Of a stretch of DNA of 60,840 bases, positions 23,302 to 53,841 are shown piece by piece. The translations under genes and the position numbers were made by a program. The stretch is from positions 1 through 60,840 of the forward strand of contig SYGM01000182.1 of assembly GCA_005799545.1 (NCBI GenBank). The letters run 5' to 3'. A model generated the notes under the pieces. That model saw only the letters and a program-made list of their open reading frames with translations. It was not told where the DNA came from and made no database searches. The DNA is from Planctomycetia bacterium. Lineage in GTDB: Bacteria > Planctomycetota > UBA1135 > GCA-002686595. How positions within the stretch are numbered: position 1 is the first letter of the stretch; each line of letters starts with the position of its first letter.

Positions 23302-25002
23302 ATGAAGATCCAAAACTCCCTTCGACTGATCCCCTTCCTCGGCCTCGCCGGCATGGCTCAGGCCCAGATCTCCTTCAGCGTCGACTACCTCGGCTCGACG
23401 GTTTCCCTGCCCTCGACTTGCCCGGGGTTGCCGATCACGGCCGGCGACATCCTCACGCCCGCCACCGGCGCACCGTGCCAACCTGCTTCGGCCGTCATCG
23501 GCGGTCTGCCGCCGCCTTCGATCCTGATCCCCGGCGGCCTGCCGGCACCGATGGGCTTGGGCATTCCCTCAGTCGCCGGCTGCACGGGCGTGCCCGGCGG
23601 CGCTCCCTGCCCGGCGGAGCTCGACGCGCTCTCCTACGGTCGCGACACGATCCAGAATTCGGCAGGCACCGGTCTGCAGGTCGCCAACATCTTCTTCTCG
23701 GTGGATGAGTTTGCCACTGGCATCGCCGGCGGCCCCTTCGCTCCCAATGTGTGGAGCGAAGGGGTGCTGACGGGCGTGAAGGACCACGCGGCCGATGTGT
23801 TCAGCAACAGCCTCGCGATCCCGTTCGTTCCGGCAGGTCCGGGCGCTCCGGCGGCAGCCGGGAACAAGGGCCGAATCGACGGAGACGGCCTGGCGAGCGT
23901 CTCGGGAGCGATCTACGCCGGACTGGGCCTGCACGAGCCGCGCCCGCCGATGGTGGGCCCGGGCCCGCGCATCGGTGACAACATCGATGGGCTGGACATC
24001 GGCCCGGTGCCGGTGACGACGGCGGGCACCACCGCCCCGGTGTTCTTCTCGCTGGACGGCAACTTCGCCGACCCGGCGCGCGGTATCAACAACCTCGGCA
24101 CCGCGCAGGCCAACGGTTTCCTGCCCGGTATGGTGCTGACGCAGGTCGCCGGTGGGCCGCCGGCGGTCTACGCCTGGCCGCAGCAACTCGGTCTGGACCT
24201 CGCGGGCCCGGGCACGGATGACCTCGATGCGCTGGCGCTGCAGGAAAACGCGATTCCCGGCTTCCAGCCGGCCAACACCGGCGTCGTTCCGGACCTGATC
24301 CTGTTCTCGGTGCGCCGCGGCTCGGCAGTGATCGGCATGCCTGACTCGCAGTTCGGCATGCTGATCTGCGAGGGCGACATCCTCACGGTGCCCGCGGCCG
24401 GTGGTGCCACTCCTGCAATCTATGTGGCGGCGGAGTGGCTGGGATTGGTCAGCAACCGGGGACTCGCTCCTGCGGGCTTGTTCGGCGATGAGCTCGATGC
24501 CCTCGATGTCGAGACGTCTCTGCCGCTCGTCGGCCAGCCCTACTGCTCGGGTGACGGATCGCTGCCCACACCCTGCCCCTGCGGCAACTTCGGCAACCCC
24601 GGCGCGGGCTGCAACAACTCGGCGGGCACCGGCGGCGCAGTGCTGACCGCCACCGGCTCGACGGTTCCGGACACGGTGGTGCTGACGAGCTCCGGCGAAC
24701 TGCCGACCTCGACCTCGATCTTCCTGCAGGGCACCAACCTGATTGCCAACGGAGTGACCTTCGGAGACGGTGTGCGCTGCATGGGCGGCCCCTTGCGCCG
24801 ACTCTATGTGAAGAATGCGGTGGCGGGCGTGGTCAGCGCGCCGATCGGCGCGGAACCCTCGATCACGACGCGCTCGGCGGCCCTTGGGGACATCCTGCTG
24901 CCCGGCACGACGCGCTACTACCAGGTGCAGTACCGCGATCCGGCCAACTTCTGCACGGCGGCACTGTTCAACGCGTCAAGTGGCTACGTGATCACCTGGT
25001 GA
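23302..25002 (+). CDS. Secreted FSVD-repeat protein with CPCGN C-terminal domain (copy 1)
   Basis: 566 residues from the ATG at 23302, which opens a signal peptide ending MAQAQ; the 14 codons before it are leader. FSVD-type strands recur (ISFSVDYLG, IFFSVDEFA, VFFSLDGNF, ILFSVRRGS). Shared landmarks are LDALSYGRD, GPRIGDNIDGLDIG, LGLDLAGPGTDDLDALALQEN and SVRRGSAVIGMPDS. Residues about 410-566 form the CPCGN...GAGCNNS domain, ending GYVITW. The next gene is a close paralogue, and the two share leader sequence too. I recognise no function; secretion and a structural or surface role are inferred. Confidence 0.78.
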   Translation: MKIQNSLRLIPFLGLAGMAQAQISFSVDYLGSTVSLPSTCPGLPITAGDILTPATGAPCQPASAVIGGLPPPSILIPGGLPAPMGLGIPSVAGCTGVPGGAPCPAELDALSYGRDTIQNSAGTGLQVANIFFSVDEFATGIAGGPFAPNVWSEGVLTGVKDHAADVFSNSLAIPFVPAGPGAPAAAGNKGRIDGDGLASVSGAIYAGLGLHEPRPPMVGPGPRIGDNIDGLDIGPVPVTTAGTTAPVFFSLDGNFADPARGINNLGTAQANGFLPGMVLTQVAGGPPAVYAWPQQLGLDLAGPGTDDLDALALQENAIPGFQPANTGVVPDLILFSVRRGSAVIGMPDSQFGMLICEGDILTVPAAGGATPAIYVAAEWLGLVSNRGLAPAGLFGDELDALDVETSLPLVGQPYCSGDGSLPTPCPCGNFGNPGAGCNNSAGTGGAVLTATGSTVPDTVVLTSSGELPTSTSIFLQGTNLIANGVTFGDGVRCMGGPLRRLYVKNAVAGVVSAPIGAEPSITTRSAALGDILLPGTTRYYQVQYRDPANFCTAALFNASSGYVITW

Positions 25003-25025
25003 GACAAGCACCAGGGGGAGGTTGC

Positions 25026-25060
25026 GGGCGCCGTCCGGGAGGGGACGGCGCCCTTTTTTT
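25026..25060 (+). terminator. Rho-independent terminator after copy 1
   Basis: Perfect 11-bp stem (GGGCGCCGTCC / GGACGGCGCCC) with a 6-base loop, followed by seven T, one G and six more T. It starts 24 bases after the stop of the upstream secreted-protein gene. Confidence 0.95.
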
Positions 25061-25143
25061 GTTTTTTCGTTCCACGGCCGGGGGGCCTGAGTCACGGGGC
25101 TTGTGAGGACGGGATGTTCCCGCCTCAGAAAGCACCTCCCCCA

Positions 25144-26835
25144 ATGAAGATCCACACGACCTCCCTCCAGTTCCTCTCCGCGCTGTGCCTCGCCGGTGCC
25201 GCGCAAGCCCAGATCACCTTCTCCATCGACCGCCTCGGTCCGGTGATCGCCACGCCGTCCACCTGCCCCGGCGCTCCGATCACAGGCGCCGACATCCTCA
25301 CCCCCTCGAGCGGCCTGCCTTGCCAGGCTTCCTCGGCAGTGGTGGCCCCCCTGCCGGTGCCCTCGATCGTGAGTCCGGGCGGTCCGGGCGGTCTGGGCAT
25401 CGCCACGGCGGCCGGCTGCACCGGCGCTCCTCCGGGAAACAACTGCCCCTCCGAGGTCGATGCGCTGAGCTACGGTCTGGACCAGATCATGACCGCGACG
25501 GGCCTCACGCTGCCCGTGAGCTCGATCTTCTTCTCGGTCGATGAGTTTGCCCAAGGCATCCCCGGCAGTCCCTTCCCGCCCAATGTCTTCAGCGAGGGCT
25601 TTCTGACCGGTGTCAACGATGCGGCTGCGGATGTGTTCCGTAACACGATCCCGATGCCGCTCCTGCCGCTGGGCCCGGGCGCGCCGGCGACGGCAGGCAA
25701 CAAGGGCGTGATCGATGGCGACGCCAACCCGAGCGGTTCAGGTGCTGTCTACGCCGGTGTGGGTCTGCGCGAGCCGCGTCTGCCGATGTTTGGCCCCGGT
25801 CCGCGCACCGGTGACAACATCGATGCGTTGGACATCGGCAAGCTGCCGATCAACACGGCCGGGGCCATCGGCCCGGTGTACTTCTCCTTGGATGCCGCGT
25901 TCCCCGACGTCCTGCGCGGCATTCCCAACACCAACACGGCTCTCGCCAACGGCTTCCTGCCAGGGGCGGTGCTGGTGCAGAACGGCGGCGGAGCTCCGGT
26001 GGTCTATGCCATGCCCATGCAGCTGGGTCTGGATTTGGGGGGGCCGGCGACCGACGACCTCGACGCGCTGGCCCTTCAGGAAAACGGCCTGCCCGGCTTC
26101 CAGCCGATCAATGCCGGTGGCGTGTTCGGCGACCGCATCATCTTCTCCGTGCGCCGCGGCTCGGCCGTGATCGGCATGCCGGATTCGCTGTTCGGAATGC
26201 CGATCTGCGAAGGCGATCTGCTGACCGTCCCGACGGCTCCGGGTCTTCCGCCCTCGATGTTCATCGCAGCAGAGTGGCTGGGCCTCAACACCTTCCGCGT
26301 GACTCCGGGTGTGGTCAGCGATGAGCTCGACGCGCTCGACATCGAAGTCCCGATGGCGCCTCCGGGCCAGCCCTTCTGCTCCGGCGACGGCACGCTGCCG
26401 ACCCCCTGCCCCTGCGGCAACATCGGCAACCCCGGCGCGGGCTGCAACAACTCGGCGGGCACCGGCGGCGCAACTCTGACCGCGACCGGCTCCACCACGC
26501 CCGACACGGTCGTGCTGACGAGCTCCGGCGAGCTCGCAACCTCGACCTCGATCTTCCTGCAGGCTACCGGCGTCCTTCCCAACGGCGTGGTCTTCGGAGA
26601 CGGCGTGCGCTGCATCAACGGCGGACTGCGCCGCCTCTACGTGAAGAATGCGGTGGCGGGTGTGGTCAGCGCTCCGGTCGGTGCGGAACCCTCGATCACG
26701 GCGCGCTCGGCTGCGCTGGGTGATGTGCTGCTGCCGGGCATGACGCGCTACTACCAGGTGCAGTACCGCGATTCGGCCCCCTTCTGCACGGCCGCCAACT
26801 TCAATGCTTCGAGCGGCTTCGTGATCACCTGGTGA
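25144..26835 (+). CDS. Secreted FSVD-repeat protein with CPCGN C-terminal domain (copy 2)
   Basis: 563 residues from the ATG at 25144, with a signal peptide ending GAAQAQ. It closely matches the preceding gene along its whole length: LDALSYGLD, GPRTGDNIDALDIG, TDDLDALALQENGLPGFQP, SVRRGSAVIGMPDSLFG, and the C-terminal domain CPCGNIGNPGAGCNNS to GFVITW. The 80 bases before the two start codons are also related. This points to tandem duplication of gene plus leader after the 21424 gene had diverged. A strong hairpin follows the stop. The function is unknown. Confidence 0.78.
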   Translation: MKIHTTSLQFLSALCLAGAAQAQITFSIDRLGPVIATPSTCPGAPITGADILTPSSGLPCQASSAVVAPLPVPSIVSPGGPGGLGIATAAGCTGAPPGNNCPSEVDALSYGLDQIMTATGLTLPVSSIFFSVDEFAQGIPGSPFPPNVFSEGFLTGVNDAAADVFRNTIPMPLLPLGPGAPATAGNKGVIDGDANPSGSGAVYAGVGLREPRLPMFGPGPRTGDNIDALDIGKLPINTAGAIGPVYFSLDAAFPDVLRGIPNTNTALANGFLPGAVLVQNGGGAPVVYAMPMQLGLDLGGPATDDLDALALQENGLPGFQPINAGGVFGDRIIFSVRRGSAVIGMPDSLFGMPICEGDLLTVPTAPGLPPSMFIAAEWLGLNTFRVTPGVVSDELDALDIEVPMAPPGQPFCSGDGTLPTPCPCGNIGNPGAGCNNSAGTGGATLTATGSTTPDTVVLTSSGELATSTSIFLQATGVLPNGVVFGDGVRCINGGLRRLYVKNAVAGVVSAPVGAEPSITARSAALGDVLLPGMTRYYQVQYRDSAPFCTAANFNASSGFVITW

Positions 26836-26857
26836 TCCCAAGCAGAAGAAAAGTCCC

Positions 26858-26895
26858 CGGCGGGCGTCGTTCCGGAAGCGGAACGACGCCCGCCG
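26858..26895 (+). terminator. Perfect 16-bp hairpin between copy 2 and the polyferredoxin gene
   Basis: CGGCGGGCGTCGTTCC and its exact complement flank a 6-base loop. No T-run follows. It lies 22 bases after the secreted-protein stop and 8 bases before the ATG at 26904, so it could end the first transcript and also limit initiation of the next gene. Confidence 0.75.
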
Positions 26896-26903
26896 CGCTT
26901 GGT

Positions 26904-28547
26904 ATGGTGTCCGAGGTCATGGGTTCCTGCAGCAGCGATGGCAAGCACCTTGCACCGCGCGTCTCACGCGCCGGGCGTTGGCGCGCGATCGTGCTGATCG
27001 TCGTGCATGTCGCGATCGCGCTGCACATCGGCCACTACATGGCGACAGGCCGGACGGTCTCACCGCTGGAACCCTCGGAATCGATGGCCTTCACCGGCGA
27101 CGGTCTGGTCAATGCGGGCGTGATCTTCTTTGCGCTGGCGATTGCGAGCACGCTGGTGCTGGGCCGCTGGTTCTGCGGCTGGGCCTGCCATGTGGTCGCG
27201 TTGCAGGATCTGTGCCGCCACTGGATGGTGAAGCTCGGCATCCGGCCGCGTCATGTGGATCTGGGCGTGCTCAAGCTCGTGCCGTGGATGGCCTTTGTCT
27301 ACATGTTCCTCATGCCGCTCGTGCTGACCTGGCTCGATGGAAAGAGCTTTGCCATCAGCGCCGTGGCGCTCACCACGGACAGCTTCTGGCGTACCTTCCC
27401 GGGTTGGGAAGTCGCGCTGCTGACCTTTTTCGTGTGCGGCTTCGCGATCGTGTACCTGCTTGGCGGGAAGGCCTTCTGCTCGTACGGTTGCCCCTACGGC
27501 GGCATCTTCGGCATCGCCGATCAGCTCGCTCCGCTGCGCATCCGCGTCACCGATGCCTGCTCGCAGTGCGGACACTGCACGGTGGCGTGCACCTCGAATG
27601 TCAATGTCAGCCGCGAAGTGCGCGAGTACGGCATGGTGGTCGATCCGGGCTGCATGAAGTGCCTCGACTGCGTGCAGGTCTGCCCCAAGGAAGCCCTGTA
27701 CGTGGGCTGGGGCGCGCCCGCGCTGTTCGCCAAGGCCCGCACGGCGCTGCGCGAACGCTCGCGCAGCTGGATCCGCGAAATCCTGACGCTTCTCTTCCTT
27801 TTCGGCGGCTACATGGCGCTGACGCTGCACAATGGCCCGTCCGGCGCGCTGCTCAACGCCCCGCAGTGGAAGCTCGCCGCGATCCTCGCGGCCGGTTCCT
27901 GGCTGGTGGCCTTCGTGTTCCGGCCGAAATCGTCTGCGCGCGGCGACTACTCGCCGTTCGAGGAGATCGCGCTGGGCGTGCTGTTCCTCGCCGCCCTGAT
28001 CTCGTTTCGCGGCCTGCACGGCTGGGTGCCGCTGCTGATGGCAATGGGCGTCGCCGCGATCGCCGCGTGGGTGGCGTTGCAGGGCTGGCGGCTGACCGCA
28101 CGACGCGATCTCAGCTGGCGCAACTGGCGGCTGAAGCGCGATGGCGGCTTCACGCCCGCGGGCGCCGTCTTTGGCGTGCTGGTGCTCGCTTCGGTTGGAG
28201 GCTGGGCCCTTGCCGCGCGCGAGCAGCGCACGCTGGTGCGGGACTTCCGCACCAAGGAAGCGGCGCTGATCGCCTGCAGCAACGGCGATTTCACGCGCGG
28301 TCTGGGCCTGCTGGAGGAACTGATCGCAGCTGCGCCCGATGATGTCGAGCTGCGCATCTACGCGGGGCAGGCCTGCCTCTATCTGCAGCAGAACGAACGC
28401 GCCCGCGGCCACCTCGAGGCGGCTGTGCGTGCGGATCCGCTCTCTGCGCCCGCGCACCGCCTGCTGGCGGCTCTGTGTGACATGGAGGGCAAGAGCGATG
28501 AAGCCGCGCGCCACCGCGAGGCAGCCGAACTCGGTCGAGATCCCTGA
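26904..28547 (+). CDS. NapH/CcoG-like 4Fe-4S membrane polyferredoxin with C-terminal TPR domain
   Basis: About 547 residues from the ATG at 26904; an ATG at 26919 is also possible. Several membrane helices surround FCGWACH and FCSYGCPYG, the paired Cys motifs of NapH/NosR-type proteins. Two ferredoxin clusters follow, CSQCGHCTVAC and CMKCLDCVQVC. Further helices come next, then about 100 soluble C-terminal residues with TPR character (LGLLEELIAAAPDDVELRIYAGQACLYLQQNERARGHLEAAVRADP). It should move electrons across or along the membrane. The partner enzyme is unknown and not encoded nearby. Joining a TPR tail to a NapH-like core is unusual. The gene is convergent with the M2 peptidase, 27 bases away. 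Confidence 0.82.
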   Translation: MVSEVMGSCSSDGKHLAPRVSRAGRWRAIVLIVVHVAIALHIGHYMATGRTVSPLEPSESMAFTGDGLVNAGVIFFALAIASTLVLGRWFCGWACHVVALQDLCRHWMVKLGIRPRHVDLGVLKLVPWMAFVYMFLMPLVLTWLDGKSFAISAVALTTDSFWRTFPGWEVALLTFFVCGFAIVYLLGGKAFCSYGCPYGGIFGIADQLAPLRIRVTDACSQCGHCTVACTSNVNVSREVREYGMVVDPGCMKCLDCVQVCPKEALYVGWGAPALFAKARTALRERSRSWIREILTLLFLFGGYMALTLHNGPSGALLNAPQWKLAAILAAGSWLVAFVFRPKSSARGDYSPFEEIALGVLFLAALISFRGLHGWVPLLMAMGVAAIAAWVALQGWRLTARRDLSWRNWRLKRDGGFTPAGAVFGVLVLASVGGWALAAREQRTLVRDFRTKEAALIACSNGDFTRGLGLLEELIAAAPDDVELRIYAGQACLYLQQNERARGHLEAAVRADPLSAPAHRLLAALCDMEGKSDEAARHREAAELGRDP

Positions 28548-28574
28548 CCCGACCCGCGCGGATCAGGGCTCGCT

Positions 28575-30380
28575 TCAGATCTCGCCCAGCGTGCAGGTGC
28601 GACCCTTGTTCTCGCGCTTGAGCCACTCCATCAGGGGTGCGAAGTAGTTGAGCATCGCCTTCGCCGACAGATCCGAGCCTGTCTTCTCGCGCAGCAGCTG
28701 ACGCCAGTCCGCCGAAGCGCCGGGCGTCATGATCGACTTCAGGAACTCGCCGACTTCCTTGCGACCGTAGTAGTTCGTGTCGCGCGGATCCTCGTGCAGG
28801 ATGTTGCGCGCGATGTGGTCGTGCAGCTGGAACAGCAGCACGAAGGACAGCGCGTAGTCGTAGTAACCCGCCGGATCGTCGTTGATGTGGGTCTTGGTGG
28901 CGGCATCGCAGTACTCTTCGCCGCGCGCGGAAGGCGGAGCGATGCCCTGATAGCGGGCTGCGAGCTCCCACCAGCGCGCGTTCCAGCGCGAGGGATCGAG
29001 CTTGTCGTGGTAGAGCTCCTTCTCGAAGTGGTACATCGTGCCCGTCGACCATGGAATGAACACGCAGTAGTTCATCGCCTCCTTCAGCAGCAAGCGCATC
29101 GCATCGGGCTTGGCTCCGCCCGTGTCGAGCCCGACGCTCGCCACGAAGCGCGGCTGCATCGCCGCGAGACCCATCAGCGAGCCCATGGCCTCGTGATAGG
29201 CGCGGTTGGCGCCCTCGCGCAGCAGCGGCGGCACGGACGGGTTGGAGTAGCACATGTAGTAGTAGATATGCCCCAGCTCGTGATGCGTGGTCTCGTACCA
29301 CTCCTGATTGGGCTCAACGCTCATCAGCGAGCGCACATCCTTGTCGAGATCGATGTGCCAGGCGGAGGCGTGCGTGTTCTTCTTGTAGCCGGCGTCCTTC
29401 GCGACGGAATACAGCGAGGAGAGCTGATGGAAGCTCTGTGGCAGCGGATCGAAGCCCAACGAAACGTAGAAGCGCTCCGCCTGCGCGATCACCCACTCCG
29501 GCGGGTGCTTCGCCATGGCCGCATTGAGATCGAAGCCCTGCACTTCCACCAGCTCGGACCAGTCCTGCCCCCAGCGATTCGGCAGCCAGTGCGCCGGAAT
29601 CAGATCCGGAACCGGCTGCCCGAACTGCTTGGCGAGTTCATGCCGCGCATAGGTGTGCAGCTCGCGGAACAGCGGCCGCAGCTCGCGATTGATCTCGACG
29701 ATCTTCTCGGTGAGTTCCGGCGTCGTCATGCCGTACTCCGAGGCCATGTACGAGAAGTAGTCGGGATAGCCCAGCTGCTGCACCACATCGTTGCGCAAGC
29801 TCCGCAGATTGACGAGCCCCGGCTTGAGCGCCCGGCCGACATCCTTGGATGCTTCCCAGACGCGCAGCCGACGGTTGAGGTCGCGCTCAGACTTGAGGCA
29901 GCCGTCGATCTCGTTGGGCGTCAGCTCTTTTCCATCGAGCTCGAAGCGAAAACCGTAGAGCTGCTCGGTCTGCGCTGCTTCTGCGGCGATGCGGCGCTTG
30001 ACCAGTTCGGCGGCGGTCTGCGGACCCGAGCCCGCCTTGAACAGCACGGCCTCGAGCTGACGCACCTCCAGCGCGTCGAGCTGGTCGCGATGTGCGAGGA
30101 AGGCGCGCGCGGCCTCGATCACTTCCACCGATCCGGTGTACGCCGCGAGCGCCTCGTTGGCCGCGCGTGTGGCCTTGGAGTTGGTCTCGTCGCCCTCGAT
30201 GATGTGCGTCTGCGAACGCCACTCCGCCTCGGCCGAGGCTGTTGCCAGACGCTGGTAGTTCCGGTTGTAGCGCTCCAGCCACAGACGGGCATCGGCCGCC
30301 AACTGGCTCGATTGACTGGTGTTCTCCATCGCGCAGGAGCACAGGACGGCCAGAGGCAGGGCCAGCAGCAGGTATCGCAT
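28575..30380 (-). CDS. M2-family (angiotensin-converting-enzyme-like) peptidase lipoprotein
   Basis: 601 residues. The lipoprotein signal ends LCSC. The zinc motif HHELGH (His367, Glu368, His371) and the downstream ANRAYHEAMGSLM supply the M2 gluzincin site, and the length fits bacterial ACE-like dipeptidyl carboxypeptidases. MSVEPNQEWYETTHHELGH is close to the family consensus. It should release dipeptides from peptides outside the cytoplasmic membrane. It is divergent from the thioredoxin-fold gene with 37 bases between starts. Confidence 0.9.
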   Translation of the reverse strand: MRYLLLALPLAVLCSCAMENTSQSSQLAADARLWLERYNRNYQRLATASAEAEWRSQTHIIEGDETNSKATRAANEALAAYTGSVEVIEAARAFLAHRDQLDALEVRQLEAVLFKAGSGPQTAAELVKRRIAAEAAQTEQLYGFRFELDGKELTPNEIDGCLKSERDLNRRLRVWEASKDVGRALKPGLVNLRSLRNDVVQQLGYPDYFSYMASEYGMTTPELTEKIVEINRELRPLFRELHTYARHELAKQFGQPVPDLIPAHWLPNRWGQDWSELVEVQGFDLNAAMAKHPPEWVIAQAERFYVSLGFDPLPQSFHQLSSLYSVAKDAGYKKNTHASAWHIDLDKDVRSLMSVEPNQEWYETTHHELGHIYYYMCYSNPSVPPLLREGANRAYHEAMGSLMGLAAMQPRFVASVGLDTGGAKPDAMRLLLKEAMNYCVFIPWSTGTMYHFEKELYHDKLDPSRWNARWWELAARYQGIAPPSARGEEYCDAATKTHINDDPAGYYDYALSFVLLFQLHDHIARNILHEDPRDTNYYGRKEVGEFLKSIMTPGASADWRQLLREKTGSDLSAKAMLNYFAPLMEWLKRENKGRTCTLGEI

Positions 30381-30417
30381 GGCAACAGCCTAGCGTGCAG
30401 GGTTATGCTTCCCCCGC

Positions 30418-31479
30418 ATGAGTCCGATCCGCGTCCTCGCCGCCCTGCTCCTTTCGGCCAGTGCCTTTGCGCAAGCCAATCCCGTCGAGGAGGAGGCCTG
30501 GTCCAAGGCCATGGCGATCAAGCAAAAGCGCGAATGGCCGGCCGCGATCGCTGCCTTGCAGGAATTCCGCAAGCAGCATCCTCAGGGCTCACGCGCCCTG
30601 CAGGCCCAAATCGAGATCGGCGTCTGCTGGATCGGCGAAGCTCAGAACAACCTCGTGCTGCGCCGCCCTACACCCAAGGCACTCGAAGCCTACACAACAG
30701 CCGAAGCGCTGTTCCGCGAGGTGCTGAATTCCTCTTCCGGCAAGGAGCTTGCTCCGCGCGCTCAGTATCTGACGGGCCAGCTGAGCTGGTATCGCGACGA
30801 CATGGCGGCCGCTTTCACCGCCTACGATGCGGGGGTTCGCACCTACGCCGCCGATGCCACATATCACGCCAAGTGCCTTGAGCGCCGCGCAGCCGTTTCG
30901 CGCGCGCTGCTCGACCAGGCGGCGGCGATGCAGGACTACAAGCTCTACATTGAACGCTATTCGAACGACAAGGACATCGCGATCGTGCGCCGCAGCCGCG
31001 ACTACACTGCGCTGTGCGGCCGTCCCGCACCGGCCTTCAGTGCCGATCGTTGGGCGCTGGGACAACCGCTGACGCGCGAAGGCCTGCTGGGACAGCCTGT
31101 GCTGGTGAGCTTCATGGCGAGCTGGTGCGAGAAGTGCGACAAGGAGAAGGAGTTCATCAAGGACCTCAAGAAGCGTTACGGGCCGCGCGGGCTGCGCTTC
31201 GTCGGCGTCGTGCATCCCTGGCGCGAGAAGGAAGGCAAGAATCGCCATACCGAAGAGAGCTTCCTGACCTTCGCGGCCCAGAGCGGGCTGGACTTCCCGC
31301 TGCTTCAGGACAGCGGAGAACTGACGGGCAACACGGCGCGTGCCTTCGGCTCGCAGGCCCTTCCGGATCTGGTTCTGATCGATGCGCAGGGCAATGTGCG
31401 CTGGCACGACCATCCGGCCAGCCTGCAGGCAAGCACGATCGAGCGTCTGCTCGCCTCCAAGCCCGCGCAACCGAAATGA
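30418..31479 (+). CDS. Secreted thioredoxin-fold protein with N-terminal helical repeats (TlpA-like)
   Basis: 353 residues. The signal peptide ends SAFAQA. Residues about 25-195 are TPR-like helical repeats (WPAAIAALQEFRKQHPQGSRALQAQIEIG). Residues about 200-345 are a TlpA/AhpC-type thioredoxin domain with FMASWCEKC (Cys237, Cys240) and LPDLVLIDAQGNVRW. A CxxC redox pair and export suggest a role in disulphide exchange or peroxide defence in the periplasm. The LOG gene overlaps its stop by 4 bases. Confidence 0.84.
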   Translation: MSPIRVLAALLLSASAFAQANPVEEEAWSKAMAIKQKREWPAAIAALQEFRKQHPQGSRALQAQIEIGVCWIGEAQNNLVLRRPTPKALEAYTTAEALFREVLNSSSGKELAPRAQYLTGQLSWYRDDMAAAFTAYDAGVRTYAADATYHAKCLERRAAVSRALLDQAAAMQDYKLYIERYSNDKDIAIVRRSRDYTALCGRPAPAFSADRWALGQPLTREGLLGQPVLVSFMASWCEKCDKEKEFIKDLKKRYGPRGLRFVGVVHPWREKEGKNRHTEESFLTFAAQSGLDFPLLQDSGELTGNTARAFGSQALPDLVLIDAQGNVRWHDHPASLQASTIERLLASKPAQPK

Positions 31480-32063
31480 AGCTGCACAGATTGTGCGTTT
31501 TCTGCGGATCGCGCAGCGGCGCCCGGCCGGAATACGCCGAGGCGGCGCGGGAGCTCGGTCGCCGCATGGCCGAGCAGCAGATCGAGCTGGTCTTCGGCGG
31601 CGGCAAGGTCGGACTGATGGGCATCGTGGCGGATTCGGTGCTGAAGCACGGCGGGAGCGCGGTCGGCATCATCCCGCGCGGCCTGCTGGAGCGTGAAGTG
31701 GGCCACACCGGACTGACCCGCCTCGAGGTCGTGCAGACCATGCACGAACGCAAGGCTCGCATGGCCGAGTTGTCCGACGGGTTCGTGGCCCTGCCCGGCG
31801 GCTACGGCACCTATGAGGAAATCTGCGAGGTGGTCACCTGGGCACAGCTGGGCATTCACTACAAGCCCTGCGTGCTGGTCGATATCGCCGGATACTGGCA
31901 GCCGCTGATCGCACAGATCGACAGCGGCGTGCGCGAGGGCTTCGTCGACCCGGCCATGCGCTCGCTGCTCACAAGCGCATCCACACTCGATCAGCTGTTT
32001 CAGCAGTTCGAGCAGTTCCAGCCCGCGCCGGTTCAGCGCTGGATGGGCCTGCGCGACTCCTGA
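31476..32063 (+). CDS. LOG-family protein (cytokinin riboside monophosphate phosphoribohydrolase type)
   Basis: 195 residues from the ATG at 31476, which overlaps the previous stop (ATGA). The family signatures are VFCGSRSG at the start, VFGGGKVGLMGIVAD, and the catalytic LPGGYGTYEE near residue 108. LOG proteins cleave the base from nucleotide monophosphates such as AMP or cytokinin nucleotides. The usual length is 180-200 residues. Translational coupling to the thioredoxin-fold gene is clear, but no functional link is obvious. Confidence 0.92.
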   Translation: MKLHRLCVFCGSRSGARPEYAEAARELGRRMAEQQIELVFGGGKVGLMGIVADSVLKHGGSAVGIIPRGLLEREVGHTGLTRLEVVQTMHERKARMAELSDGFVALPGGYGTYEEICEVVTWAQLGIHYKPCVLVDIAGYWQPLIAQIDSGVREGFVDPAMRSLLTSASTLDQLFQQFEQFQPAPVQRWMGLRDS

Positions 32064-32071
32064 GCACGACG

Positions 32072-44436: not shown

Positions 44437-44466
44437 AAAAAAACCACCCTGCCGGAGGCAGGGTGG
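44437..44466 (-). terminator. Rho-independent terminator of the sigma/anti-sigma operon
   Basis: On the reverse strand, CCACCCTGCC pairs with GGCAGGGTGG around a 3-base loop, followed by seven T. It lies 74 bases after the stop of the small secreted-protein gene and just before pdxA. Confidence 0.93.
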
Positions 44467-44539
44467 CGTTTCGAACTTCGCGGCGCGGATACTGGCAGCG
44501 GCACTCGCACTCGCCGCAGTGAGCCTCACCGCAGCAGGC

Positions 44540-46140: not shown

Positions 46141-46996
46141 CGCTGTCCTCCTCGCTCCAGACATCCTGAAGCTGATCGGATTCCGGGTTCGAGCCGCGTG
46201 CGGGGCGGCAGTCAGGGCTCAGGCCTTCAAAGACCCGACGCATCGAGCGGTGGATCTTCCGGCGCGCCCGGAAGATCACCATCTTCAGATTCTCCAGACG
46301 GATGCCGAGTTGGTCCGCCGCCTCGCGGTAGCTGACCTCGTCGACTTCGACCAGATGGAGTGCCTTGCGCTCGCGCTCAGAGAGCATCGAATAGAAGCGC
46401 AGGTAGAGGTGCAGGTAGGTCAGGTAGACCTGGGTGCACTCCTTGCGGCTCTCGCTCTCGACCGCTCCCGCAAGCGGTGAGGAGGCGGGCGCGGCCTGCG
46501 GCTCGCTGACCATGTCCTCGATCGCGAGCTCGGTGCGGCCACCGCGCCCGAGCGAGCGCAGGTGCTTGAGCACGGTGTTGCGAACGATCATCGCCGACCA
46601 GACGCGGAACGCATCCTCACGCTCGGCGTTGAAGCGGTGCGGGTAGCGATAGACGTTGAAGAACACCTCCTGCAGCACATCGCGGGGGTCGGCCTTGCTG
46701 CCGTAGCGGCGCAGGCGCGAGGCCACCTGAATCAGAAGGTGCTGGCTGTTGAGCTCGTACAGCAGGCCGAAGACTCCCCGGCCCTGACGCAGCCGGAAGG
46801 CCTCCATCAGCCGGGTCGAAACGCTGTCCCGCAGGTTCTCCGGAGCGCGGTTTGTGTCCGCGCACAGGCCGAGCAGAGCCTCCGCCTCCTCACGCAGAAG
46901 CTCAGTTCCCAATTCCCGAATCCGCACGACCAGGCGCTGGGCGCCGAGGTCGTTGGGCAAGGCGAAATCGGATTGGAGAGGATCCGTGACCTGCAT
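46130..46996 (-). CDS. Sigma-70-family (ECF-like) RNA polymerase sigma factor
   Basis: 288 residues, longer than usual for ECF factors. The N-terminal 70 residues are extra. Region 2 reads DPRDVLQEVFFNVYRYPHRFNAEREDAFRVWSAMIVRNTVLKHLR. Region 4 reads LSERERKALHLVEVDEVSYREAADQLGIRLENLKMVIFRARRKIHRSMRR. The tail is acidic (SEEDSDEP). It heads a three-gene unit with the zinc-finger TPR protein and a secreted protein. The queG gene starts divergently 123 bases away. Confidence 0.87.
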   Translation of the reverse strand: MQVTDPLQSDFALPNDLGAQRLVVRIRELGTELLREEAEALLGLCADTNRAPENLRDSVSTRLMEAFRLRQGRGVFGLLYELNSQHLLIQVASRLRRYGSKADPRDVLQEVFFNVYRYPHRFNAEREDAFRVWSAMIVRNTVLKHLRSLGRGGRTELAIEDMVSEPQAAPASSPLAGAVESESRKECTQVYLTYLHLYLRFYSMLSERERKALHLVEVDEVSYREAADQLGIRLENLKMVIFRARRKIHRSMRRVFEGLSPDCRPARGSNPESDQLQDVWSEEDSDEP

Positions 46997-47119
46997 GAGG
47001 GGCAGGATGGGGCAGGAGGGAGGGGGCTATCTCGATCCTAGCCGCATTCAGCCGGGTGGTAACCCCGAGCTTGCGAAGATTTCATTTTCTTTTTTCAGGA
47101 CTCCGGCGAGCATCGCGGC

Positions 47120-48178
47120 GTGCGCAGCGAGCAGCAGATCGAAGAGTGGGCCCGAGAGCTGGGCTTCGATCTGTTCGGGATCGCACCGCTGCGGCCGCCG
47201 CGGGATGCCGCACAGTTCGAGGACTGGCTGGCGCAAGGCCACCATGCCGGCCTGCATTGGCTGGAGGAGCAACGCGAGCGCATCGTGGACCCGCGCCGGG
47301 TGCTGCCGGAAGGCAAGAGCATCGTTGTTCTGGGCATGGGCCACTCGCGCCCCGCCGTCACGCTGGAGGGCGGTGGTCGCGTGGCGCGCTATGCCGCCGG
47401 CCGGGACTACCACAACCTGCTGATCAAGCGCGTCCGGCGGCTGCTGCGTCGCATGAAGGCCGCCGGTTTCGTGCGCGATGCGCGCACCATGGCGGATGCG
47501 GCTCCCCTGCTGGAGCGCTCGCATGCGGCCGAAGCCGGGCTGGGATTTCTGTCCAAGGCCGCGAATCTACTGCACCCCGCCTTCGGCCCCTTCTTCTTCC
47601 TCGCCGAGGTGCTTGTTGATCTGGAACTGGAGCCGACAAGCAGCCCGTTGCCCGGTTCCTGCGGCACCTGCACGGCCTGCATCGAGGCCTGCCCCACTGG
47701 AGCGATCGTCGCACCCGGCCGGATCGATGCCGGACGCTGCATCAGCTACCACACGATCGAGAGCCGCGTCGCCATCCCCCCCGCCATCGCCGAAAAGACG
47801 GGACCGTGGGCCTTCGGCTGCGATGCCTGCTCCGAGATCTGCCCTTGGTCGCGCAAGGCGCCGGACCTTGCCGGGCGCTGGGGCACCAATCGGGTGGTCG
47901 AGGGAGGACTGGTCAGCTGGCTGGAGCCGCGTGCGGATTTCGAAGACTGGACGGAAGGCACCGCCCTGCGCAGGCCCGGTGCCGAGGGACTGGCCCGCAA
48001 TGCGGCCATCGCCCTGGCGGGCATTCAGACCGATGCCAGCCAACGCGCTTTGCTCAAGGCGCTGCGCTCTCACCCCGCGGAGCTCGTTCGGGATGCGGCG
48101 GCCTGGAGTCTGGGGCGGGGCTTCGGCCAGGACACGCAGGTCCGCCGCGAGCTCGAGCACTGGCGTCGCTCCCGATAG
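47120..48178 (+). CDS. queG: Epoxyqueuosine reductase QueG
   Basis: 352 residues, GTG start. It uses cobalamin and two 4Fe-4S clusters to make queuosine in tRNA, the last step. The clusters are visible as CGTCTACIEACPTGAI (from Cys181) and GCDACSEICPW (from Cys234). DAAPLLERSHAAEAGLGF supplies the cobalamin-proximal Asp, and GRCISYHTIE is typical. The extra C-terminal 60 residues are HEAT-like (ALLKALRSHPAELVRDAAAWSLG), as in many QueG proteins. queA, the preceding pathway step, lies about 7 kb away on the other strand. Confidence 0.94.
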   Translation: MRSEQQIEEWARELGFDLFGIAPLRPPRDAAQFEDWLAQGHHAGLHWLEEQRERIVDPRRVLPEGKSIVVLGMGHSRPAVTLEGGGRVARYAAGRDYHNLLIKRVRRLLRRMKAAGFVRDARTMADAAPLLERSHAAEAGLGFLSKAANLLHPAFGPFFFLAEVLVDLELEPTSSPLPGSCGTCTACIEACPTGAIVAPGRIDAGRCISYHTIESRVAIPPAIAEKTGPWAFGCDACSEICPWSRKAPDLAGRWGTNRVVEGGLVSWLEPRADFEDWTEGTALRRPGAEGLARNAAIALAGIQTDASQRALLKALRSHPAELVRDAAAWSLGRGFGQDTQVRRELEHWRRSR

Positions 48179-48475
48179 ACACAGACGAGCGTGTGTCAAA
48201 ATGGCGCAACACAAGCGCATAACATGTTATACTGCAACACTTTACGTCCAAGATCATGGAAAGCACCCCCCGCGCGCCATAGGATGTTGCATTCTTCTTC
48301 AGGAGTCGGCCGTGATGTCGCTCCGCCCGCTCTGTCGATTCCATTCGACAGTCAGGGACGGGGGGTCCAGGAGTGGGGCAAAGGCAGCCTTGCCCTAAGT
48401 CGTGGCGGCTCCGATATTTGCAACTTTCTAAGCCGCTCCGGCTGCCAGCGGCATTGCTCTTGCTAGGTCCCAAGC
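48179..48475 (+). promoter_or_regulatory. 297-base control region with a palindrome and promoter candidates
   Basis: ATAACATGTTAT (48219-48230) is a perfect 12-base palindrome overlapping a TATACT -10 candidate (48228-48233). CTGTCGA / TCGACAG form a small hairpin near 48330-48350. TTGCCC (48390), 17 bases, GATATT (48413-48418) is a second promoter candidate about 60 bases before the zinc-ribbon gene. No convincing gene is seen here. Confidence 0.45.
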
Positions 48476-48688
48476 ATGGAACACAGCAACTTCTACAGCG
48501 ACCGCAAGTTCTGCACCCAGTGCCGCAAGTACGTGAGCTACCTGGTGTCGCTGGAGCACTCCTACTGCTGCGAGTGCGGATCGCGCGTGCGCCTGTTCTC
48601 CGAGAACGACTGGACGCACTTCCACGAAAACCTTGAGCGCAACCGCCCGCGCGGTGGCCGCCCCAAGAAGGGCAAGGAATCGGCCTGA
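48476..48688 (+). CDS. 70-residue zinc-ribbon protein
   Basis: The protein has two CxxC pairs, CTQC and CCEC, spaced 18 residues apart as in a zinc ribbon, then a basic Gly/Lys-rich tail (RPRGGRPKKGKESA) that could contact nucleic acid. Composition and codon use fit a real gene, and an AGG precedes the ATG. A strong hairpin lies after the stop. The function is unknown. It has its own upstream control region with an operator-like palindrome, so a small regulator or ribosome-associated protein is possible. Confidence 0.65.
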   Translation: MEHSNFYSDRKFCTQCRKYVSYLVSLEHSYCCECGSRVRLFSENDWTHFHENLERNRPRGGRPKKGKESA

Positions 48689-48744
48689 GACTACCGACCG
48701 CAGGATCGGACCCGCGTTCCCTGATCTCTCGGTACTTCAATCGC

Positions 48745-48778
48745 GGCCTCGCGATCCCGGCACGGGGATCGCGAGGCC
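48745..48778. terminator. Bidirectional hairpin terminator between convergent genes
   Basis: Perfect 14-bp stem (GGCCTCGCGATCCC / GGGATCGCGAGGCC) with a 6-base loop, then GCCCTTATTTATTT on the forward strand. It lies between the zinc-ribbon gene and the convergent TPR gene. Confidence 0.88.
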
Positions 48779-48786
48779 GCCCTTAT

Positions 48787-49890
48787 TTATTTGCCGCGCA
48801 GGCGCAGACGGCGCTCCCCCGCTTCGATCTGCAGCTTACGGTCCTTGATGCTCGCATAGAACTGCTCCAACCGTTCCCACACCAGCACGTCCTCGGGCGC
48901 TAGCTGGGCGAGCTGCTCGGCAAGCAGCCTCGCCGCGGCCTCATCCCCCAGCCCGGCGGTGAGCTCCAGTCCGTACAGGCGCAATTCGACGGACGAGGGA
49001 TCCGTGCGGAACAGACGCGCAAGGCTCTCGCGCAGCTGTGTTCGATTCCCCGCGCGACGGTGCAGCTCACAGGCACTGCGCAGCAGCAACCGGTCACCGG
49101 GCCGGTAGAGCAGCCGGTTTTCGACGGCACGCAGTTCCTGGGAGATCACGGACAGTTCCTCGAAGCGGCGCTGCGCCTCCTCGGCCGCTTTTTCCTCACC
49201 ACGATCAGCCTGAATGCGCGCCAGCAGAAACCAGGGCTTGGGCTGAAAGGCGTCGAGATCGCGAGCCAGCGCGGCCGCCGCAAGCGCATCATCGAGGCGC
49301 TCCAGATCATAGAGCAGCGAGGCGCGCCATGTGGCGGCATCGGCGTGGCGCGGATCGAGCGCCAGAACGGCATCGAGTTCCGACAGGGCGCGCTCGCTCT
49401 CTCCCAGACGCATGCACGCCAGAGCGTGGCCGCGCAGCGCCTCAAGCTCCTTGGGATTGCGCTCCAGCACGCGCTCGTAGTGCGCCTTGGCGCGCGCGTA
49501 TTCCCCGAGCGAGTAGTAACCGTGAGCGAGCACGCGCGTGTCACCCACTCGTTGCGGAACAAGCTCAAGATAACGTTCCAGACAGACGACGGCATCGCCG
49601 TAGCGCTGCAGGCGGAAGTACAGCACTCCCAGCTGATGCCAGGCCGGCGGGAAGTCCTCGGTCTGACGCAGCACGGCGTGCAGCGCAGCCAGCGCGCGCG
49701 GATAGTCCTGCGCGAGCAGCGCGCGCTGCACCTCCTCCATGCCCGCGGGCAGCACCGAGCGCTCGAGCTTCGCAGGATCAAAGTCCTTCCAGCGCGCACC
49801 GTCGCCGCGCGGCAACAGACGGGGATCGAGTTCCGTGGCGGGAACCTGCGCCAGCAGCAACGCAGCGAGCAGCAAGGACAGTGCGCTCAT
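48787..49890 (-). CDS. Secreted TPR-repeat protein
   Basis: 367 residues. The signal peptide is short (SLLLAALLLAQVPA). At least six tetratricopeptide units follow, for example PPAWHQLGVLYFRLQRYGDAVVCLERYLELVP, AHGYYSLGEYARAKAHYERVLERNP and ALACMRLGESERALSELDAVLALDP. Its ATG overlaps the stop of the CRTAC1 gene by 4 bases. CRTAC1/UnbV plus TPR pairs are common in planctomycetes and may form surface protein assemblies; the exact role is unknown. Confidence 0.84.
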   Translation of the reverse strand: MSALSLLLAALLLAQVPATELDPRLLPRGDGARWKDFDPAKLERSVLPAGMEEVQRALLAQDYPRALAALHAVLRQTEDFPPAWHQLGVLYFRLQRYGDAVVCLERYLELVPQRVGDTRVLAHGYYSLGEYARAKAHYERVLERNPKELEALRGHALACMRLGESERALSELDAVLALDPRHADAATWRASLLYDLERLDDALAAAALARDLDAFQPKPWFLLARIQADRGEEKAAEEAQRRFEELSVISQELRAVENRLLYRPGDRLLLRSACELHRRAGNRTQLRESLARLFRTDPSSVELRLYGLELTAGLGDEAAARLLAEQLAQLAPEDVLVWERLEQFYASIKDRKLQIEAGERRLRLRGK

Positions 49891-51497
49891 GGCCGGCGCT
49901 CCAGCAGCAACAGCCGATCAAGCCCGGCGCAGGCAAATTCCTGCTCGATGCCATCCGGCCAGCGCACGCGGATGCGCTCAGGAGCAGGTCGCGACCCCAG
50001 GCCGAAGTGCACTTCCGGCGCCACCGCTGACTGGTAGCCGCCCGCGGTGCGGATCTCGGCGCCCTGCTGTCTGTCCTTCCACTCCAGCGTCACGCGAGCA
50101 CCCAGCGCAAAGCGGTTCTTCCCGGGCTGGCGCAGCGCGATCCGCAGCCAGCGATGATTCTCGCCGTGTGCGGCCTGATTGAGCAGCACGCGCACGGGAC
50201 CTTCGACCGACACCGCCACGATGTCGAGGTCGCCGTCGTTGTCGAGGTCGCCGACGGCGCTCGCACGCGAGACGGCGGGCTTGCTGTCCGAGAGCACGGC
50301 ACTGCCGAACTTGCCGCCTTCCAGGCCGCGGTGGAAAAGGTCGGCCTGCGCGTAGCTCGTGTCGGTGCCGGGCTGATCTGCCTGAGGGTAGACGTGGCCG
50401 TTGAGCACGAACAGATCGAGTCGCCCGTCAAGGTCATAGTCAGCGAAGGATGTGCCCCAGCCCAGCAGTGGCAGACTCGGAGCCGCCAATCCGGCCTGAC
50501 CCGAGCGCTCGCGGTATCCGAGACCCTTGGCAGCCGAGAGATACAGCACGTTGTTCTCGCCGGAGAAGTTGGTCACGAACAGATCGTCGCGCCCGTCTTC
50601 GTTGGCATCTGCGCAGGCGATGCCCATGCTGGCCTGCTCGCGCCCGTTGGCATCGTGCGAAACACCGCGCGCAAATCCGACTTCTGCGAAGGTGCCGTCA
50701 CCACGATTTTCGAACAGGTGATTGGGCGTCGAGTCGTTCGCAACATACAGATCGCTGTCGCCGTCGCGATCGTAGTCGAGCACCATCACGCCCAGCCCGA
50801 AGCCCGGCTTCACACCCGCAATGCCGGCTTCCTTGCTGCGTTCCTCGAAGCGGCCATTGCCCAAGCCTCGGAAGAACTGCGAAGGCAGCGGTGTCAGGCC
50901 TTCGGGCCCGCACATCACCGCGTGACCCTTCCACCGACAGTTGCCCGTTTCGCGCGAGCCGATTCGCGCGAAATCGAAGTCGAGATAATTGACGACGAAC
51001 AGGTCGAGGTTGCCGTCGCAATCCGCGTCGAACAGCGCGGCGCTCGAACCCCATGAGCCCGCACCCAGCCCGGCCTCGGTCGTGATTTCGCGGAAGCCCT
51101 TGCCTCCCTCGTTGCGGATCACGCGCGTCGGTCCCCACTGCGTGGTCACCGCATCCGGCCAGCCGTCGTTGTCGATGTCACCCACTGCGCCGCCCATGCC
51201 GAAACGCCCGCCCTCGAGCTGCCACGCAGCGCCTGCAGGCTGAAACGTGCCGTCGCCCTTGCCGAGGAAAAGGCGCGGAGGCAGGCCGCTTTCCTGCTTG
51301 CGTGCGCGCTCGCCGGTGGAGCCGTCGACCAGCAGCAGATCAAGCCGGCCGTCGCCATCGAAGTCCGCCAGCAGCACGCCGCCGCCGTTGACCTCGAGGA
51401 TGTAGTCCTTCGCAGGACTGCCGCAGGTGGTTACGACGCCGGGCAGTGCCCGCGCGCCGATCTCGATAAAGGGAGGTGTCGTCTGGAGGAAAAGCAT
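49887..51497 (-). CDS. CRTAC1/UnbV family protein with FG-GAP repeats
   Basis: 536 residues. Repeated calcium-loop blades such as DFDGDGRLDLLLVDG, DIDNDGWPDAV, DADCDGNLDLFVVN, DYDRDGDSDLYVAN and DLDNDGDLDIVAV mark an FG-GAP/VCBS propeller. The C-terminal 100 residues are the ASPIC/UnbV domain (HRWLRIALRQPGKNRFALGARVTL, RTAGGYQSAVAPEVHFGLG, IRVRWPDG). No signal peptide is visible after this ATG, and the ATG lies inside the hairpin ending the upstream gene, so the true start is uncertain. It is coupled to the TPR gene. Confidence 0.85.
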   Translation of the reverse strand: MLFLQTTPPFIEIGARALPGVVTTCGSPAKDYILEVNGGGVLLADFDGDGRLDLLLVDGSTGERARKQESGLPPRLFLGKGDGTFQPAGAAWQLEGGRFGMGGAVGDIDNDGWPDAVTTQWGPTRVIRNEGGKGFREITTEAGLGAGSWGSSAALFDADCDGNLDLFVVNYLDFDFARIGSRETGNCRWKGHAVMCGPEGLTPLPSQFFRGLGNGRFEERSKEAGIAGVKPGFGLGVMVLDYDRDGDSDLYVANDSTPNHLFENRGDGTFAEVGFARGVSHDANGREQASMGIACADANEDGRDDLFVTNFSGENNVLYLSAAKGLGYRERSGQAGLAAPSLPLLGWGTSFADYDLDGRLDLFVLNGHVYPQADQPGTDTSYAQADLFHRGLEGGKFGSAVLSDSKPAVSRASAVGDLDNDGDLDIVAVSVEGPVRVLLNQAAHGENHRWLRIALRQPGKNRFALGARVTLEWKDRQQGAEIRTAGGYQSAVAPEVHFGLGSRPAPERIRVRWPDGIEQEFACAGLDRLLLLERRP

Positions 51498-51538
51498 TCG
51501 GCCATCCGCACTCCGCAGGGAGCGCCGATGGCCGAATG
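51495..51538 (-). terminator. 20-bp hairpin overlapping the CRTAC1 start codon
   Basis: Two 20-base arms (18 matching) flank a 4-base loop. On the reverse strand the second arm ends in the ATG of the CRTAC1 gene and is followed by CTTTTCC. It lies 15 bases after the stop of the FG-GAP gene. Confidence 0.75.
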
Positions 51539-51552
51539 TACGCTGCGAGGGC

Positions 51553-53841
51553 TTACCAGTTCAGCGTCCAGCCGTTGGAAACATTCCAGGTGTTGCCGGG
51601 CGGGTTGGCGCAGAAGCCAGGGTTGGCATCGCGGTAGTAGGCTTGGTAGTGGCGCTGCGTGCCCGGGACGATCGTGTCGCCCAGCGCCGCCGAGCGCGCA
51701 CTGACGGACAGGTCGCCGGCCGCCGGGGCGCTGACGGCACCGCCCGAAGCGTTCTTGACGTAGAGACGCTTGAGAGCGCCCGCCACGCAGCGCACGCCGT
51801 CTCCGAACACCGCGCCATTGGCGTTGATGGCATCGCCCTGCAGGAAGATCGTCAGAGCGGTCGGCAGCTCGCCAATGGCGTTGAACTGGATCGTGTCCGG
51901 CGTGGTCGATCCCAGCGCCCACAGGCGTGAACCGGCCGTGTTGGCCGAGTTGGCGCAGCCGTTGGCGGGGCCGCCCGTGTTGCCGCAGGGGCAGGCCGTG
52001 GCAAGGGAACCGTTGCCGAAGCAGAAGGCGGCTCCCGGCGTGTTCGAAGCCAGCGGGATCGCGCGCGCGTTGGAGATGCGCACGTTGCCCGGCCAGTCGG
52101 CGAAGCGCAGCTCGTAGCACAGCTGCACCCCCGCCGCACCGGTGTTGTCGGTCATGCGGAAGCGGTACATCTGACCGGCCATGTGCAGGCCGGTAACCGT
52201 GGTCGTGCTGCCCGTCACGACGATCTGGCCGGCGAAGCCGCCGCCCGCACTGGTGTAGTTGTAGGTGCCGGGCGCCACGAAGGTGCGGCTGTACGTGCCG
52301 CCGTTGCTGATGTTGCCCGACGCGTAGGTGTAGGGCGCGGTCGCGCTGGTGACGCTCTGCACGCCGCCTGACGCGTTCGTGAAGGTGACCGTCGTTCCGG
52401 CGGCGATCGTCAGCACGGCCGGAGAGAAGGCCGATGCGGAGATCGTCACGCTGTCGTTCTGCGCGGCCGGAATCACCACGTACTCGGCGCTGGCCCGCAC
52501 GTAGTTGATGGCATCGTCGAGCACCTGATCACGGATCTTGGCCTTGATCGTCCAGGGGCCCGTGGTCGGGAGGCTCGCGGGGATCTGCTCCGCGGTGATC
52601 ACCGGCGCAAGCGTGTCCGCAGCCCCGGTGTTCCGGTAGAACTTGTTGGTGAACACGCCGGACTCGCCCTGCGCGGTGATGAAGTCATAGCGCCCGTCGT
52701 TGTTGAGGTCGGCGAACGTACAATCCAGCGAAGAGTCAGCCTGCGCCTGAATCGTCGCGGCCGTGACGGCCGTGAAGGAAAGCGCACCGTTGTTGCGGTA
52801 GACCGCCTCCGTGGCACCCAGCGAGCCGATGAACACATCGTAGTCGCCGTCGTTGTCGTAGTCGCAGAAGGCGACTTCGTTGTCGTCGTTGGTGCCGAAG
52901 GTGGCCTGCGTGGTGAAGCTCAGCGTTCCGTTGGGAACCATGTTGTTCCGCACGGAGCCTTCGGCAAAGCCCGAAAGCGACACGAAGAACATGTCCGCAT
53001 CGTTGTCACCGTCGAGATCGCACAGATCGTTCTCGTAGGTGTTGCCGTTGCCGGCGGCAAGCAGCGCGGAGGAGTCCGTGAACGTGCCCGCGCCGTTGTT
53101 GAGCATCACATAGTGGTTGCCGCTTGCGTTGACCGCACGGCAGACGCCCACGAAGTCAAGATCCCAGTCGTTGTCGAGATCCACCAGCTGCACGTCCATC
53201 TGCGTGCTCTTGTTGGGAGCACCTAGAGCGGCGGCGTTCTCGGTGAAGACACCCGTGCCGTTGTTGAAAAACAGGTGCGGCTTACCGGCAGCGGCACCGA
53301 GGTACGCGTCATTGATGATCAGGTCGAGGTCGCCATCGTCATCGAGGTCGCCGAACTGGGCATTGCCGGAGGAGTAGGTGGCGGTGAGTCCGCGCGCCGC
53401 CGCTTCCTGATCGAAGAAGCCGGGCTGGGCCGCGCCGCGGTTGTGGTAGAGGAAGGGAGGATCGGTCAGGAAGGCATTGGCGAAGAGCGCATCCACCCAG
53501 CCGTCCGCGTCGATGTCTGCGGTGATCACGCCCTTGGCATTCGAGAGGTTGGTGCCCAGGCGCGCCACGCTCTCGTTGGTGAACGTGTACGCCGGGCCCG
53601 TTCCGACCACCTGATTGATGAACAGCGTGTTCTGACGCTGGGTGCCGGCGCTCGAGAAGCCGTCACCGTCGGCAAAGAAGACATCGAGGTCGCCGTCGTT
53701 GTCGACGTCCGCGCACTCCACGCCCTCCGACCAAACGGCGGCGCCAGGGAAGGCGGTCACTTGCTGGAACTGCTGGCCGGAAGCCTGAGAGGCGACGAGG
53801 CCCAGAGCGATCGCTCCGGGCAGGAGGCGGTGGAAATGCAT
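51553..53841 (-). CDS. Large secreted FG-GAP protein with cupredoxin-like and CPCGN C-terminal domains
   Basis: 762 residues. The signal peptide ends SQASGQ. Residues about 30-420 contain many FG-GAP/VCBS blades (DVDNDGDLDVFFADGDG, DLDDDGDLDLIINDAY, DYDNDGDYDVFIG). Residues about 470-565 resemble a cupredoxin (FSPAVLTIAAGTTVTFTN, TFVAPGTYNY), but the usual copper ligands are replaced (VQSVTS instead of HTV; no Cys or His after GTYNY). Residues about 610-762 are the CPCGNTGGPANGCANS domain, ending GWTLNW, shared with the genes at 23302 and 25144. A pyrimidine-rich leader precedes the start. The function is unknown; it is probably a surface protein. Confidence 0.82.
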   Translation of the reverse strand: MHFHRLLPGAIALGLVASQASGQQFQQVTAFPGAAVWSEGVECADVDNDGDLDVFFADGDGFSSAGTQRQNTLFINQVVGTGPAYTFTNESVARLGTNLSNAKGVITADIDADGWVDALFANAFLTDPPFLYHNRGAAQPGFFDQEAAARGLTATYSSGNAQFGDLDDDGDLDLIINDAYLGAAAGKPHLFFNNGTGVFTENAAALGAPNKSTQMDVQLVDLDNDWDLDFVGVCRAVNASGNHYVMLNNGAGTFTDSSALLAAGNGNTYENDLCDLDGDNDADMFFVSLSGFAEGSVRNNMVPNGTLSFTTQATFGTNDDNEVAFCDYDNDGDYDVFIGSLGATEAVYRNNGALSFTAVTAATIQAQADSSLDCTFADLNNDGRYDFITAQGESGVFTNKFYRNTGAADTLAPVITAEQIPASLPTTGPWTIKAKIRDQVLDDAINYVRASAEYVVIPAAQNDSVTISASAFSPAVLTIAAGTTVTFTNASGGVQSVTSATAPYTYASGNISNGGTYSRTFVAPGTYNYTSAGGGFAGQIVVTGSTTTVTGLHMAGQMYRFRMTDNTGAAGVQLCYELRFADWPGNVRISNARAIPLASNTPGAAFCFGNGSLATACPCGNTGGPANGCANSANTAGSRLWALGSTTPDTIQFNAIGELPTALTIFLQGDAINANGAVFGDGVRCVAGALKRLYVKNASGGAVSAPAAGDLSVSARSAALGDTIVPGTQRHYQAYYRDANPGFCANPPGNTWNVSNGWTLNW

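Follow-up and report, generated by a model that had tools for sequence, protein, structure and literature searches.

The locus and its proteins

The window, a 60,840-nucleotide stretch of DNA from a Planctomycetia bacterium (contig SYGM01000182.1), encodes four signal-peptide proteins, named here by their lowest positions (21424, 23302, 25144 and 51553), that have in common a C-terminal domain of about 140-157 residues. We use "cargo" for the part of each protein that precedes this domain. All four open reading frames (ORFs) were found at these positions, the first spanning 21424-23208 (+) and the last 51553-53841 (-), and the starts at 23302 and 25144 are internal ATGs ahead of clear signal peptides. 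The parts of the four proteins are as follows.

21424..22737, + strand: cargo part of the 21424 protein, with a signal peptide, an FSVD-repeat region and then a DCNNNGVEDAVDI...NGIPDECE spacer; 44% identity to the 23302 protein
22738..23208, + strand: second-subtype C-terminal domain (PCGN...GCENSTG) of the 21424 protein; 149.6 bits with the second-subtype profile, of which this copy is itself one row, versus 107.2 bits with type A
23302..24528, + strand: cargo part of the 23302 protein, with signal peptide MKIQNSLRLIPFLGLAGMAQAQ and an FSVD-repeat region; without Pfam match
24529..25002, + strand: type A C-terminal domain and stop codon of the 23302 protein; profile match of 212 bits to the last residue, AlphaFold2 pLDDT (predicted local distance difference test) 96.2
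25144..26361, + strand: cargo part of the 25144 protein, with a signal peptide and an FSVD-repeat region; 66% identity to the 23302 protein
26362..26835, + strand: type A C-terminal domain and stop codon of the 25144 protein; 85% identity to the domain of the 23302 protein, match reaching the last residue
51553..52026, - strand: type A C-terminal domain and stop codon of the 51553 protein; 198.9 bits to the last residue, 55% identity to the domain of the 23302 protein
52027..53841, - strand: cargo part of the 51553 protein, with a signal peptide, seven FG-GAP repeats (FG-GAP_3, E 5e-33) and a cupredoxin-like stretch (Cupredoxin_1, E 6e-4, below its cut-off)

The landmarks CPCGN, GCxNS, FGDGVRC, LYVKNA, RSAALGD, YRD, FC and a final W were all confirmed in the domain. 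A preliminary description of this DNA had stated that the N-terminal parts of the proteins at 23302, 25144 and 51553 differ. This holds for the FG-GAP protein at 51553 against the FSVD proteins, and the cargo is diverse genome-wide, but the proteins at 23302 and 25144 are paralogues. Because the proteins at 21424, 23302 and 25144 are paralogous over their N-terminal parts too, the window holds two cargo types, not three. No Pfam family matched the FSVD region. The three FSVD paralogues stand in tandem at 21424-26835 and bear two different domain subtypes. The 51553 protein has a neighbouring FG-GAP protein at 49887-51497 (-), which carries UnbV/ASPIC and lacks the domain.

Subtypes and predicted fold

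The copy on the 21424 protein had been described as decayed. We reject this, as the copy scores best with the profile of a second subtype, which other genomes commonly carry in intact form, and this subfamily sits on 21424-type cargo in most related genomes. The second subtype is related to type A (profile-profile probability 99.5, E 4e-22) and occurs in 42 of the 294 genomes of a sample spanning Planctomycetota, with at least 10 copies in some families other than that of the window. In the same phylum sample (E 1e-8), type A occurs in numbers only in the window's family; elsewhere no more than 1-3 copies were seen, in five genomes that belong to three other families. There is also a third subtype (YCTAK...NS.GC), likewise placed at the C-terminus.

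The expectation that the domain matches no known catalytic or binding family held up. Pfam gave no match over the domain for any of 54 copies, nor did NCBIfam for the four window proteins, while a search of PDB sequences with the domain profile gave chance matches only, and no description of the domain was found in the open literature searched. AlphaFold2 modelling from 74 aligned copies (mean pLDDT 96.2) predicts a compact, all-beta domain with one short helix. The predicted strands are 3-9 residues long and six Cys are conserved, on which grounds we reject an outer-membrane barrel; Arg95 and Arg140 are invariant. When the domain model was compared with the PDB by Foldseek, no match fell below E 0.03, and the template modelling (TM) score was at most 0.41 among the matches listed. 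A weak model of the full-length 23302 protein (pLDDT 63.6) likewise gave no significant PDB fold match.

Copy number and placement

Copies were counted in stretches taken from the window's own genome (3.4 Mb, 77% complete). A search with only the domain of the 23302 protein found 55 places (E 1e-102 to 2.5e-4), and pooled profiles for the three subtypes raised this to 72 distinct copies. The domain shared by the proteins at 23302, 25144 and 51553 is thereby confirmed with more copies than had been noted, and the expected multiplicity per genome is seen both here and in most genomes of the family (below). Copies with a visible stop codon were C-terminal in 70 of 70 cases; among these is one (L160) whose alignment stops 20 residues short of the end, the profile match ending early. 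Two copies in one protein were never seen in this genome, nor was any tandem arrangement.

A wider set of 187 scored ORFs, including 77 loci from public planctomycete genomes (scanned with a 14-row alignment), gave the same picture. All 183 closed ORFs carried the domain C-terminally, and 182 of them end within 6 residues of it; the 183rd (L048) is an internally deleted copy with the terminal motif of the domain still at the end. The remainder consists of three ORFs cut by contig ends and a single internal copy, L021. Strictly C-terminal placement had been predicted, and an internal occurrence had been named in advance as counting against the idea, so that the prediction stands for every closed ORF and L021 speaks against it. 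Of 174 type A copies, 159 have a Trp 0-2 residues ahead of the stop.

The longest example was a 4,465-residue secreted protein in another genome (G005, L127, 1232-14626), in which repeated beta-helix-like and TSP3-like stretches are followed by the domain at the end. One domain came from a contig filed as Chloroflexi (L087, JACRBR010000091.1); this contig shares its groundwater sample series with a planctomycete bin, and mis-binning is the probable explanation.

Export signals and cargo

A signal peptide was recognisable by in-house heuristics, not SignalP, in 51 of the 54 own-genome proteins inspected singly. The N-terminus of the other three was unreadable (two lie at contig ends and one starts inside a repeat array), which agrees with the claim that a signal peptide is always present. 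Judged by their sequence, these signal peptides are of the Sec type. A uniform heuristic, which misses some starts hidden by stop-free GC-rich sequence upstream, called signal peptides in 131 of 171 domain ORFs versus 48 of 300 other long ORFs. Only a single lipobox candidate was seen among the domain proteins.

The cargo ahead of the domain is varied, with 70 clusters among 172 proteins (blastp, E 1e-12). It includes peptidases (M36 fungalysin, M64, subtilase S8, M12B and trypsin-like) as well as GSDH, C-type lectin, FG-GAP, TSP3, beta-helix, lactonase, MauG and cupredoxin proteins, each in 1-3 proteins, and a galactose-binding-like domain associated with the type IX secretion system (GBD_T9SS_assoc) is present on three. 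The spectrum is not mainly glycan-active. In two proteins of the window's own genome (L017, contig C132, 1-8500), long arrays of the DTDSDGTxxCNDxCPNDPxKxAPGxCGCGVA type precede the domain; one of these ORFs begins within its array and lacks a signal peptide, perhaps owing to the assembly or to a frameshift.

Presence, absence and genome dialects

The 25 genomes of the window's family fall into two groups, with 39 to at least 90 type A copies in 17 of them and 0-1 in the other 8. The third subtype splits the family likewise, at least 20 versus 0-4 copies, with some cross-matching between the subtype profiles. All 17 carrier genomes, no other genome of the family and, by a weak match, one genome outside it have the FSVD cargo of the 23302 protein, and different genomes bear different domain subtypes on this cargo. 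Genome G025, from another family of the order, has a weak FSVD homologue that lacks the C-terminal domain (L145, 233-1948).

Within a sample narrowed by choosing the loci of other genomes for their similarity to type A, 70% of copies had their nearest relative in their own genome, versus 19% when genome labels were shuffled. Between genomes, the mean identity of copies on homologous cargo was 0.465 versus 0.472 on other cargo, and for strict reciprocal best cargo pairs the domain identity was 0.48 versus a background of 0.45. The domains of distant cargo pairs were at background although the cargo was up to 61% identical, and some close pairs retain similar domains (e.g., 0.73-0.79 versus 0.58-0.59). 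The weak coupling to cargo, together with the same-genome nearest relatives, indicates that the copies of a genome evolve largely as one set. Such genome dialects fit co-evolution with a common partner.

Weak coupling to cargo is also what one would see if the domain were a folding or stability module, that is, a disulfide-rich C-terminal cap against proteolysis that was spread by gene shuffling and has no receptor. The six conserved Cys and the compact fold agree with such a cap, which nevertheless does not readily account for the invariant Arg95 and Arg140, the genome-wide dialects or the presence/absence split, and we regard it as improbable.

Search for a dedicated machine

The preliminary description had looked for support in a dedicated transporter or protease co-occurring with the domain, and none emerged. 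No secretion component turned up in Pfam scans of 20 other proteins of the window. The cargo genes are dispersed over the genome, as is the norm for type IX and PEP-CTERM systems too. Clustering of the 367 ORFs adjoining cargo genes revealed no family that lies beside the domain in more than 2 genomes, and for want of a recurrent family among these ORFs we reject a dedicated transporter or protease beside the cargo genes. SprA was found in 0 of 41 genomes, yet no control genome gave a match either. C25 (PorU-type) peptidases occur in 4 of the 17 carriers versus 2 of the 8 non-carriers of the family and do not correlate with the domain. Secretins, which belong to type II systems and type IV pili, occur in all 41 genomes and are for that reason uninformative as a discriminating partner.

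Interpretation

We favor the reading that this is a C-terminal sorting domain, to which we assign a probability of roughly 0.5, slightly on the favorable side of even. It is supported by the single C-terminal copy, the signal peptides, the unrelated extracellular cargo, the large copy number, the genome-wide dialect, the all-beta predicted fold and the abundance of the domain in some genomes against its near-absence from related ones. In the proposed course of events, the proteins would cross the inner membrane via Sec by means of an N-terminal signal peptide of the signal peptidase I type, after which the C-terminal domain, once in the periplasm, would adopt a beta-sandwich fold stabilised by disulfides. 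Its recognition by a shared machine or receptor of the envelope would follow, and the cargo would be transferred to, or retained at, the outer surface of the cell. The domain would thus act like the C-terminal domain (CTD) of type IX substrates in Bacteroidota, to which we claim no homology. We infer the disulfides, the recognition by a machine, the cell surface as the destination, and cleavage or anchoring if either takes place. A further proposal, which we hold tentatively and at somewhat less than even odds, is that the Planctomycetota of this family export proteins across the outer membrane, or display them on the surface, by a system that has no relationship to type IX; its substrates, from about 70 to well above 90 in a genome, would carry the co-existing domain subtypes A, B and C.

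Several observations weigh against the sorting reading. The machine searches are among them: the SprA result, the C25 peptidases that do not track the domain, the secretins present everywhere and the lack of a recurrent neighbour. Another is the internal copy on L021 (1-1258, own genome, contig C147), which has the order signal peptide, domain, FGE-sulfatase and runs off the contig end; a second domain copy at its missing C-terminus is possible. Furthermore, the on/off split between genomes may simply follow one clade and be a single event, and gene conversion or recent expansion could yield the same dialects. The preliminary idea of a sorting or surface-anchoring module is therefore sustained in placement, signal peptides and copy number, and weakened by the one internal copy and the failure to find a dedicated machine.

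The same observations bear on the main rival, in which the domain is not a transport signal but a binding domain, similar to dockerins or carbohydrate-binding modules, that attaches secreted proteins non-covalently to a surface glycan, a matrix or a scaffold protein. Export would then take another route, e.g., a type II system, whose outer-membrane pore is of the secretin kind that all 41 genomes possess. A binding domain could tolerate an internal position as in L021 and calls for no dedicated machine of the kind searched for (in the case of SprA, without a positive control); the all-beta fold is compatible with it, and a binding site could be made up of the invariant Arg95 and Arg140. Unlike most carbohydrate-binding modules, however, the domain shows no tandem copies and is C-terminal in all but one case, the cargo is not mainly glycan-active, and neither a Pfam binding family nor a PDB fold was matched. 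On balance we find the binding explanation doubtful.

Extracellular proteins are prominent in planctomycete genomes, and the routes that sort them to the outer membrane are poorly known. One published survey speculated that, in clades where few secretion systems are recognised, further ones await discovery (PMC4793230). One tag on about 70 exported proteins of one small genome gives a candidate extracellular proteome and a handle on the missing machine, and close relatives that have or lack the tag are available for profiling. Hypothetical proteins that now have no domain assignment, dozens of them in a genome, would gain annotation. A separate export machine, if it exists, would be a new secretion system.

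Comparison with known systems

Dockerins and carbohydrate-binding modules resemble the present domain in being modular, often terminal and found on many secreted enzymes. Here, in contrast, there is no family match and no tandem, the position is C-terminal bar one copy, and the cargo is not mainly glycan-active. Sortase-dependent anchoring is similar in that signal-peptide proteins are sorted by their C-terminus, but its LPXTG motif was present in 0 of 174 copies.

The tags of the PEP-CTERM/exosortase, MYXO-CTERM/myxosortase and GlyGly-CTERM/rhombosortase systems offer a closer parallel, in which dozens of exported proteins per genome share a C-terminal tag (PMC1569441, PMC11980579, PMC3237569) and, as here, the cargo genes are scattered. 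These tags consist of a short motif, a transmembrane helix and a basic tail, whereas the present tag is a folded domain; a membrane-like segment (19-residue hydropathy of at least 1.6) was seen in 5 of 174 copies, and just one of the 174 has a basic tail.

The type IX system of Bacteroidota is nearest in logic, with a signal peptide and a C-terminal beta-sandwich on many unrelated extracellular proteins and with conserved last residues. The CTD of type IX substrates is a beta-sandwich whose last residues matter for secretion (PMC11285876), and the terminal Trp of the present domain may be an analogue of these. That CTD is, however, a compact seven-stranded domain as opposed to about 155 residues with six Cys here, and no sequence match between the two was found; among the 50 best PDB fold matches listed for the all-beta model there was no type IX CTD. 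Membership in type IX is supported neither by the tails (Por_Secre_tail, PF18962), which were found in 0 of 41 genomes while the positive control was detected, nor by the uncorrelated C25 peptidases, with the SprA negative standing beside them without its positive control. A true type IX signal served by a system too divergent for the profiles used would share the logic, placement and cargo spectrum, and GBD_T9SS_assoc on three proteins would suit it. The missing tails, the C25 peptidases in just 4 of 17 carriers, the SprA result with its lack of a control and the fold matches all speak against such a system, as does the published survey, in which type IX was found only in Bacteroidetes (PMC4793230), and we consider it highly improbable. 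As a kind, the domain belongs with the C-terminal sorting domains.

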